A DNA stretch of 64,000 nt from Effrenium voratum (Eukaryota; Sar; Dinophyceae; Suessiales; Symbiodiniaceae): contig CAUJNA010000458.1 of NCBI GenBank assembly GCA_963377175.1, positions 511,033 through 575,032 of the forward strand, read 5' to 3'. A program made the translations under genes and the position numbers. Shown here one piece after another: positions 24,296-36,801 of this stretch. The first letter of the stretch is position 1, and every line of letters begins with the position of its first letter. The notes under the pieces were generated by a model that saw nothing but the letters and a program-made list of their open reading frames with translations, was not told the DNA's origin and made no database searches.

Positions 24296-24408
24296 GCTAA
24301 AGCGTTAACCGTAGGTGGTCGCTTGTCTTGACTCTTAATAAGTATCCACTTGGGCCACCATTTTGGCTCAAGTGGACCTTTTGATCTTTTGTCTTGTGAT
24401 TTGAAATC
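24296..24408 (+). repeat. Shared 113-bp leader of unit A
   Basis: Identical by eye to 31133-31245. It ends TTGTGATTTGAAATC and is followed by an unrelated short sequence and then the first ATG of the unit (24433). It probably holds the transcription and trans-splicing signals common to both units. Confidence 0.9.
24308..24372 (+). promoter_or_regulatory. Spliced-leader-like sequence in the unit A leader
   Basis: CCATTTTGGCTCAAG at 24358-24372 is identical to the last 15 nt of the 22-nt dinoflagellate spliced leader. ACCGTAG, the first 7 nt of the leader with D = A, lies 43 bases upstream at 24308-24314. The long match is very unlikely by chance at this position and recurs in unit B. Such relict leaders mark genes that returned to the genome as cDNA of trans-spliced mRNA. 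The split arrangement could also be coincidental for the short 5' part. Confidence 0.7.
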
Positions 24409-24432
24409 TTTCTTTCCCCTACTCTCAAAGCC

Positions 24433-26325
24433 ATGTACGCCCCCGCCTACGCTGGTGCCGCGGTAGCAGAGGCCAAGGCTAAGGCAAAGGCCTCCATGGC
24501 AAAGTACCTGGCGAGCCTCGTGAAGAGGGAGGAAGAAGGATGGACCGTTTTGGCTGCTGAGGTCCCTCAGGCACCTGACGAGCGTTTCTTCTCCAGCGCA
24601 GATGAGCTGGAGCAGGCCCCCCTTATCCCGGCCAAGCGCAAGGCAGAGGATGAGCCGATGGAAGATGCAGCCCCTGGGGTGGCGCAGGTGCCGAAGGCCC
24701 TGACACGCCCCCCAGGGGCGTTCCTGGAGCTCCTGAACCCGCCGGAGGAGGACGTGCCCATGGAGGAGCTCCTGGCGAAGGACGAGAAGGAGCTGCCGAT
24801 GCCCAGGTCCCCCTCGGCTGCAGCCCGCTTGGAGGAGGCCCGCCTGGATGCCCGGGCAGACGCCAAGTGGCAGAGGCGCCGGGAGCTGATGGCGAAGGTC
24901 AAGGAGCAGGCGTCCTCGGAGGAGGATGAGAACCCCGCAGCCCCCCCGCCGGGGGGGAGCGTGTTCACCAAGGCCCTCAAGGTCTCGGAGGGCCTCTACC
25001 AGTTCAGCGACGACCAGATGGCGGGCGACTTCCCTTGCTTCGATGCGACCACGGCCACTAGGCTCCGCCGACTGCAGGCCAAGGACGTCCAGCGGCTCCT
25101 GCGAGGCTTTGAGGGCCCCCAACTCAAGCGGGGGGGCCTGGAGCGCGTTGTGGAGGCCTTCTACATCGCCAAGATGAAGTACGAGCATGAGGCCCGGCTC
25201 AGCACCCCGGGACAGCAGGTTGGCAAGCGCGCTGGCTTGGGGTACGGGGGCCTGGAGAACCGCCCCCTGGGCAAGGTGCCCACATCCTGGATCTGCCCCT
25301 GCTGCACCATGCCCTGGGTGAAGAAGGGCGCCACGAAGTGCATGGGGTGCGGCAAGAAGACGGAGCCCATTGACACGGCGACCAACTCGGCCACCCTGGA
25401 GATGGCGGGCACGCATTGGCAGTTGACGGTGGATGACCAGGGCAATGCGGTCTGGACGGCGGCCCGGTCCGCGGGTGCCGAAGGCCCTGACACGGACCGG
25501 GCCCGCGACCTCAAGCTCAGTGCCTCGGTGGACGTCAGCGAGCTGGCCACCGACCCGATGGCCTGCGAGAACCCGGACCAGGCCAGCTTCTCGGACTTCG
25601 TCCCCTCCTCGGTCCGGGCGGTGATCAGGAACTGCCCCATGGAGCTGGACGAGGAGTTTCTGACGGCCCCACCGGGGGAGAGGCCCCCATTGCCAGGCGA
25701 CAAGGAAGAGGGCCAGGAATGCAGAGCCTTCCACCCGTCTGCGGTGAAGGCCTTCAAGATTCAGACCCGGCTCAACGCCACCACCATCGCCCAGGAGGAG
25801 GCCAAGAAGGCGGACCAGGTGGAAGCGGTGGAGCGCTCCGCGGCGGTCCTCCACGAACTTCAAGGGGGGGCCATTGACGGAGGAGGTGATGGAGGCCTGC
25901 TCCTGAAGAACCTGGACTTGGACCTCTTCCGTGAGAAGCTGCTGGACAAGCTGGGTGCGGACTGGGGGAGACCCACACCGGAGCTCCTCCAGGCCCAGAC
26001 CACTGCGGAGGAGGCGAAAGCGAAACACCAAGCCAGACAGGCGAAGGGCTCCCTCGAAACCAGAATGCTCGAGCCCATCGCGCCTCCCTTCAGTGCGTGG
26101 CCTAGTGAGGTCCGGGTCGCCATTGAGACTGGGGTCTTCGAGCCGACAACGGCATGGAGGGACTTCAGTATGGACGACCTCACATCCCTCACGGACTCCT
26201 ACCTTGAGGCCAAGGCGGTCATCTCGCTGGGTAGGAATCCCTTCCCGGCGGCCCTCCTGTCAGATCTGCCGGACCTGACAGGGATCCCCATGCCAAAGGC
26301 GGCGCCCAGGTGCCGAGGGCCCTGA
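24433..26325 (+). CDS. Unrecognised zinc-finger protein of unit A (ORF A1)
   Basis: A 630-codon frame starts at the first ATG after the shared leader. It begins with an Ala/Lys-rich helix, followed by a long charged, Pro/Glu-rich region. Near residues 288-306 is a compact Cys cluster, CPCC...CMGCG, that fits a zinc ribbon. A helical Glu/Lys/Ala-rich C-terminal half follows. Two copies of the element's 18-21-nt motif are read in frame (as QVPKALT near residue 87 and GAEGPDT near residue 351). A third (26307-26327) supplies the stop, so the natural C-terminus may have been longer. The position right after the leader is where gag would be expected, but no gag domain is recognised. Function unknown. 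Confidence 0.65.
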   Translation: MYAPAYAGAAVAEAKAKAKASMAKYLASLVKREEEGWTVLAAEVPQAPDERFFSSADELEQAPLIPAKRKAEDEPMEDAAPGVAQVPKALTRPPGAFLELLNPPEEDVPMEELLAKDEKELPMPRSPSAAARLEEARLDARADAKWQRRRELMAKVKEQASSEEDENPAAPPPGGSVFTKALKVSEGLYQFSDDQMAGDFPCFDATTATRLRRLQAKDVQRLLRGFEGPQLKRGGLERVVEAFYIAKMKYEHEARLSTPGQQVGKRAGLGYGGLENRPLGKVPTSWICPCCTMPWVKKGATKCMGCGKKTEPIDTATNSATLEMAGTHWQLTVDDQGNAVWTAARSAGAEGPDTDRARDLKLSASVDVSELATDPMACENPDQASFSDFVPSSVRAVIRNCPMELDEEFLTAPPGERPPLPGDKEEGQECRAFHPSAVKAFKIQTRLNATTIAQEEAKKADQVEAVERSAAVLHELQGGAIDGGGDGGLLLKNLDLDLFREKLLDKLGADWGRPTPELLQAQTTAEEAKAKHQARQAKGSLETRMLEPIAPPFSAWPSEVRVAIETGVFEPTTAWRDFSMDDLTSLTDSYLEAKAVISLGRNPFPAALLSDLPDLTGIPMPKAAPRCRGP

Positions 26326-36594: not shown

Positions 36595-36645
36595 TGCCGG
36601 GAGGGCATCCGGTGAGGTGGGAGGATTCCTCCCTCGCTGTGGGAG

Positions 36646-36801
36646 TGGCATCAATTCTACTCCCATCAGCTGCTGAGGGGAGCTGCCCAGTGGAGCTGGG
36701 CAATCCTCCCATTTTGGCACTAATCCTTATGCGGCGTAAAGGATGCACCGTTTCGCGATTAAGGTACCAGTAGCACCAATGTGGTGCTTTGAAGAGTCTG
36801 G
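36646..36801 (+). repeat. Shared 156-bp tail of unit B
   Basis: Matches 30977-31132. After its final TCTGG the host sequence CAATACTAAATTAGAATTGG begins at once. Confidence 0.9.

Follow-up and report, generated by a model that had tools for sequence, protein, structure and literature searches.

Two coding blocks between split direct repeats

We analysed a 64,000-nucleotide stretch of the genome of the dinoflagellate Effrenium voratum, of the family Symbiodiniaceae (assembly GCA_963377175.1, contig CAUJNA010000458.1, positions 511,033 to 575,032; hereafter the window), in which two adjacent units, A and B, carry different genes between a common leader (L) and a common tail (T). We conclude that A and B are very probably the coding blocks of one abundant tyrosine-recombinase retrotransposon of ~12.5 kb with split direct repeats. 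The leader occurs as A1 (L1) and A2 (L2) and the tail as B1 (T1) and B2 (T2). The features of the window copy are listed below (ORF, open reading frame; RT, reverse transcriptase).

24293..36798, + strand: whole element, 12,506 bp; left end TGG-GCTAAAGCG, right end GAAGAGTC
24293..24408, + strand: repeat A1 (L1), left terminus, 100% identical to 31130-31245
24400..26325, + strand: ORF1 of A, open frame of 641 amino acids with one CPCC...CMGC stretch (by eye); no Pfam match
26279..27952, + strand: ORF2 of A, open frame of 557 amino acids; relatives include named Symbiodinium and Effrenium entries
28281..29765, + strand: probable N-terminal part of the tyrosine recombinase gene, assigned by position
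29155..30486, + strand: tyrosine recombinase, catalytic part (P0004), from motif residues and fold
30977..31129, + strand: internal repeat B1 (T1)
31130..31245, + strand: internal repeat A2 (L2), joined to B1 without a spacer
31237..32518, + strand: gag-like region with a Cys/His-rich end, in overlapping frames 31237-31821 and 31538-32518; labelled by eye
32519..35288, + strand: linker containing four hairpins, followed by a methyltransferase-like stretch and RT lead-in with three hairpins
35212..36594, + strand: RT (FVDD) and RNase H
36646..36798, + strand: repeat B2 (T2), right terminus; B1 and B2 are 153 bp
36799..36993, strand not assigned: host 62-bp tandem repeat adjoining the right end

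The first-pass annotation of the window had described a common leader and tail and an end-to-end join of the two units, and both were recovered. The leader at 24293-24408 is 100% identical to that at 31130-31245 over 116 bp, three bases (TGG) more than first described; the tails at 30971-31132 and 36640-36801 are 99% identical over 162 bp; and A and B abut at 31132/31133 with no spacer. TGG is part of the left end. It was present in 9/9 elements read at that end, in all 44 A starts of the pattern search described below and in both B-only starts (C69 and C779). At the right end the host bases after GAGTC vary among copies, and the right flank begins with TGG in 2/10 copies, the window copy included. 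Because TGG belongs to the left end and host bases vary after the right end, we place the element at 24293-36798.

The tandem-repeat sequence to the right of the element also starts in its left flank (24272-24292). No inverted repeat pair of at least 30 bp was detected in 22000-40000, so the inverted terminal repeats of DIRS1 have no counterpart there. Immediately to the left of the element lies a duplication with ~260-bp spacing (23884-24252).

The assignment of a recombinase to A and of RT and RNase H to B, also made in the first-pass annotation, was borne out by motifs and structural models. In P0004 the aligned catalytic residues are R87, K114, R211, W234 and Y243. Position 208, a near-invariant histidine (H in most of the 26 aligned sequences), is Y in P0004 (Y208-x-x-R211) and in P0130-P0132. 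With the P0004 model (mean predicted local distance difference test, pLDDT, 74), the top Foldseek matches were Flp, Cre and XerH, and the first 19 were all tyrosine recombinases; the best E value was 1.7e-3, and none reached E <= 0.001. Taking predicted fold and motifs together, we conclude that unit A encodes a tyrosine recombinase. Its putative N-terminal part lies in a different frame from the catalytic part in the window copy. The RT-RNase H model (mean pLDDT 76) matched retroviral RTs with a best E value of 1.7e-9, and Ty3 RT ranked 9. The model thus assigns RT-RNase H to unit B, and the structure of the copies places it in the same element as the recombinase.

No Pfam family was found at cut-off in nine window frames or ten relatives, P0005, the putative gag-like protein with its Cys/His-rich end, included. 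The gag-like label is a reading by eye. So is the methyltransferase-like label, based on the stretches GPNCRTWS and FLEHPEDP, which resemble methyltransferase motifs. Relatives of the element proteins are named Symbiodinium, Polarella and Effrenium voratum, and others carry Skav and symbB identifiers, which we take to denote Fugacium and Breviolum. Two Effrenium entries match ORF2 at 96 and 100% identity over 8 and 7% of its length. The peptide GAEGPD had 0 occurrences in dinoflagellate papers among the matches listed. The gene pieces of the window copy are spread over several overlapping frames, and 38 loci carry a gag-region stretch that it lacks (altered in L029 and L038); on these grounds we regard the window copy as degraded or diverged.

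Copies of the element in the E. voratum genome

We searched the window's own assembly (1,155,904,702 bases in 3699 contigs) with an exact 28-base string spanning the T|L junction. The string was found at 210 places, and its reversed control at 0. Fifty junctions from the first 100 of these places were typed by reading, in two sets of 30 and 20 loci. Forty-nine joined the end of A to the start of B (29/30 and 20/20) and one was B|B; no B|A or A|A junction was among the 50. A separate group of eight loci, picked by the presence of a B start, was likewise A|B throughout (8/8). As the two kinds of B-A junction would be alike in sequence, the order of the halves at each insertion records which junction was used.

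We also searched for the reverse arrangement, a tail leading into A, with a 132-base pattern of the main subfamily that allowed up to 3 mismatches. This yielded 44 places, whose differences in the first 80 letters lay within the five bases before TGG, and none of the 44 had the exact GAGTC before the A start; the sample is biased in that the five host bases before TGG had to resemble GAGTC. Mutated tails might have been concealed among the near misses, but in the four of the nearest that were read, host DNA and not a tail stood upstream of the leader (4/4). With 0/44 exact matches and host DNA in the four misses read, no A was found after a tail in the main subfamily.

Twenty-four of these A starts lie on contigs covered by the junction list, and 18 have an exact junction within 9 kb. 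Three others are followed by a mutated T|L and then B, one has B downstream and one reads N; the sixth, on C113, lies 20.7 kb from the next junction and is outside the resolved set. No A-only copy was among the 22/24 resolved. From the other side, we scored 40 of 583 candidate B starts: 27 lie at a listed junction, eight more, from outside the list, proved on reading to be at one too, two are not at a junction (C69 and C779), and three are beyond the list and outside the reading. Thus 35/37 placeable B starts directly follow T.

Ten junctions were read widely, ~8 kb to either side (C161 starts 3.9 kb before its junction). The order L1-A-T1-L2-B-T2 was found in eight of them, in one of which (C132) T2 runs into N. 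Of the other two, C161 starts inside A, at the contig start, and C91 is without the left part of A in the stretch read. Between A2 and B2 lie ~5.4 kb of gag-pol. In the copies read the order is therefore A1-(ORF1, ORF2, recombinase)-B1A2-(gag-like, methyltransferase-like, RT, RNase H)-B2, where the gag-like and methyltransferase-like labels are putative as above.

Among the loci read, deletions and rearrangements of A and B are frequent; L005, for instance, is without A 3515-6403, the span that holds the recombinase gene. One copy on C219, counted among the eight (C219a; L047/L048, G000:C219:121694-133311), has an inverted A segment, and its B end is replaced by an A-type end before T.

The repeats were compared between copies, with C132 omitted (T2 into N) and the T2 start of C114 placed by hand. 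Two subfamilies were found, whose L differ by 8.8% and whose T differ by 6.5-9.2% (the hand-set T2 apart), with C219b as a copy intermediate between them. L1 and L2 are 100% identical in 8/9 elements that hold both, in both subfamilies, and identity between T1 and T2 is 96.7-100% in the 10 elements where both could be read. Between the subfamilies both copies of each repeat change jointly. Two unrelated neighbours would not be expected to change in this way, whereas repeats of one element would if, at each round of copying, the ends were written from the internal pair or the internal pair from the ends.

One element or two

Several observations weigh against A and B always acting as one unit, or limit what the copies can tell. 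The copy at C69 (G000:C69:519333 to about 524980; L084, L086) is a B-only insertion, host|TGG-L-B-T|host, of which both ends were read (the middle of B lies outside the reading); its L and T are identical to those of the window. At C779, read at the left end only, host DNA stands before L-B, and a second leader piece lies 306 bases into B. These may be insertions of B, or copies from which recombination between L1 and L2 removed A. In the single B|B tandem met (L034; G000:C316, about 15412-20989, minus strand), B-T is followed by a partial second T and then L-B. The halves are thus not inseparable. Among the repeats, L1 and L2 of C219b differ by 2.7%, and in subfamily 2 the two tails within an element are in some cases no closer than tails taken from different elements, so that homogenisation is shown between subfamilies and not copy by copy. 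The 210 places also overstate the number of independent insertions, because some insertions were probably counted more than once: upstream of the leader, C676 and C1512 (L088, L089) are identical in host sequence through all 180 bases read and are probably a duplicated region or a duplicate contig, and several pairs among the 44 A starts have the same five bases before TGG. The one-sided A-B order is unaffected by such duplicates. The share of incomplete copies is known from samples, such as the 40 scored B starts.

The first-pass annotation had favoured a two-segment retrotransposon, in which A and B replicate and integrate separately, help each other in trans and meet when one inserts at the end of the other. 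Shared ends and complementary genes are what such a system would have, and B was met alone with clean ends at C69 and a clean left end at C779. If the units were independent, however, A|A, B|A and B|B tandems would be expected as well, and 49/50 sampled junctions have one order; moreover, no exact T|L-A junction was found in the pattern search, no A-only copy was among the resolvable A starts, and nearly all placeable B starts directly follow T. We therefore reject the two-segment form as the main one and consider it very improbable. Of the arrangements to be searched for under that proposal, A-B proved frequent and B alone rare, and A alone and B-A were not met in the loci sampled. Less probable still is that a larger parent gave rise to A and B by opposite deletions, or that the assembly joined them wrongly. 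Deleted copies of either block are indeed common, but the junction recurs 210 times and in differing host flanks, which rules out an assembly join, and the loci read held no copy in which one leader and one tail enclose both RT and recombinase. A composite element with internal repeats, named in the first-pass annotation as an alternative, is what the widely read junctions display.

How the composite arose is another matter. A recombinase element and an RT element may once have integrated end to end and then become a mobile unit, an origin that is compatible with A and B now being blocks of one element. The two halves have L at their start and T at their end, and both contain the hairpin family described below. 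Split direct repeats are, on the other hand, found in many such elements, according to the passages of PMC4157794 compared here, and no A-only element was met; we consider this origin possible but rather unlikely.

In eight copies no terminal direct repeat longer than 2 bp was found, and these copies thus lack a target-site duplication. The window copy leaves room for a 21-bp duplication, because it adjoins a 62-bp tandem repeat of 21-bp halves. In the DIRS1 model the circle carries a 3-bp junction identical to the target (PMC3266345). Here TGG occupies the place of such a junction but is seldom carried by the right flank (2/10). The right flank thus is without the 3-bp identity predicted by that model, a further point against our account, and a strict 3-bp match seems unneeded.

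For a single element with repeats A1-B1A2-B2, the cycle would run as follows, after the published model for such elements. RT would copy the element transcript. The internal B1A2, which has the sequence expected of the joined ends B2-A1, would template the completion and joining of the ends, and the recombinase would insert the joined form without duplicating target DNA. The reverse-transcription and circle steps are inferred, not observed, and this too counts against the account. If a circle were inserted through either of its identical B-A junctions, half of the insertions should read L-B-T-L-A-T; none was seen in the loci read. B1A2 and B2-A1 are the same sequence, yet the B-A order is missing, which suggests that the newly joined ends, and not the internal junction, would serve integration. 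This polarity would follow if the integrating form were linear or freshly joined, or if the internal site bore a mark. The one-sidedness bears directly on the way in which elements with split repeats finish and integrate their DNA, for which models are the main source of knowledge.

The B-only copies invite a tentative extension, to which we give limited credence. A joined form with two identical B-A junctions might be resolved by the recombinase into A and B circles; B circles would then integrate with the recombinase supplied in trans, and the whole element would use one junction, with a mark other than sequence separating the two. If so, a one-piece genome sheds a mobile RT-bearing half.

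Known relatives and an internal hairpin family

PAT, DIRS1, Ngaro, VIPER and SymbioDIRS were compared by their published descriptions, in the passages of the papers cited. A tyrosine recombinase, RT and RNase H in one element and the absence of a target-site duplication place the E. voratum element in the DIRS order, and it has the split direct repeats A1-B1A2-B2 of the PAT group. Here the recombinase block stands first and gag-pol second (49/50 junctions), unlike Pat1, which has gag-pol first. A zinc finger in gag is a Pat1 trait; here P0005 has a Cys/His-rich end for which Pfam gave no match. In nematode-form Pat1 and in Kangaroo, internal repeats lie between the methyltransferase and recombinase genes (PMC4157794). 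Our element resembles both in having a tyrosine recombinase with RT-RNase H and an internal pair between the pol/methyltransferase-like and recombinase blocks. It differs from Kangaroo of Volvox in that the recombinase runs in the same direction as pol, and from both in its ~12.5 kb, its two extra ORFs and its 19 internal hairpins.

Dinoflagellate DIRS-like elements are described with A-coding-B-A-B repeats and two orders of the integrase and Pol ORFs (PMC5890265). With SymbioDIRS-Dnmt3 of Symbiodinium the element has in common a dinoflagellate host, split repeats and, by eye, a putative methyltransferase-like stretch beside RT; in SymbioDIRS-Dnmt3, which as described has both integrase/Pol orders, the internal pair follows the coding part, whereas here it separates two coding blocks. 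Ngaro and VIPER have split direct repeats of the form A1...B1A2B2 (PMC6681497, PMC4157794); as described, their internal repeats lie downstream of the recombinase and beside B2, and a methyltransferase is absent, whereas here ~5.4 kb of gag-pol separate A2 from B2. DIRS1 combines a recombinase with RT-RNase H and a methyltransferase and integrates without target duplication (PMC3266345). The element is like it in the recombinase, RT-RNase H and mode of integration; the terminal repeats of DIRS1 are inverted and it has internal complementary regions, whereas the repeats here are direct. The exact layout was not found in the passages compared, and we do not claim that it is absent from print. 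The element is of a known kind, and what is unusual is its module order, its one-sided junction use and its 19 hairpins.

These hairpins, which the first-pass annotation did not mention, share one core. Their positions in the window are as follows.

24671..35305, + strand: 19 hairpins with core CAGGTGCCGARGGCCCTGANA and copy-specific stems
24688, 25475, 26310, 26376, 27378, 28041, + strand: starts of GTGCCGA (or a variant), part 1
30503, 30569, 30642, 30696, 30766, 30860, + strand: starts of GTGCCGA (or a variant), part 2
32556, 32637, 32796, 32841, 35131, 35179, 35273, + strand: starts of GTGCCGA (or a variant), part 3
30491..30900, + strand: array of six hairpins, from the recombinase stop codon to B1

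The 21-base core occurs with few changes in 19 copies, all inside the element and on the + strand. Apart from these, the 64 kb hold a single match (at 26854), which has 3 mismatches and lies on the opposite strand, with 1.8 such matches expected by chance. Ten fetched elements held 128 cores, against 0 in 46,203 flanking bases; three cores on the opposite strand lie within the inverted piece of C219a. The stems differ between copies and covary. Inner stem positions paired in 73/76 cases, compared with 38.2 when arms were shuffled among copies, and in a gap-free alignment 90.6% of cells paired (73.3% shuffled), with a covariation of 0.427 (0.107 shuffled). Sliding the arms by one base lowered pairing to 50-53%. 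At 30503, a compensatory stem change was found in 12/44 rows, some of them from overlapping loci.

By eye, 16/19 hairpins lie near ORF ends. The arrays are rich in small deletions across other copies, and the hairpin was missing or unreadable in nine rows at 35131 and in single rows elsewhere. In an Rfam search nothing in the window reached the gathering score, and 23800-37300 gave three weak single matches that fell short of it, so a known RNA family was set aside; the core was not found in viral contigs. Nor do the hairpins look like recent insertions, as the 19 places recur in other copies with small deletions and not clean empty sites; a hopping hairpin is less likely than the other readings. 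As candidate functions we see signalling for packaging, for recoding or for reinitiation, or recognition by the gag-like protein. One core with independent, covarying stems suggests that the core is read by a protein or the ribosome.

Elsewhere in the window, 2001-10000 and 54001-62000 are richer in G+C and have strong GC skews of opposite sign (+0.15 to +0.19 and -0.14 to -0.21), and possibly hold further mobile elements.

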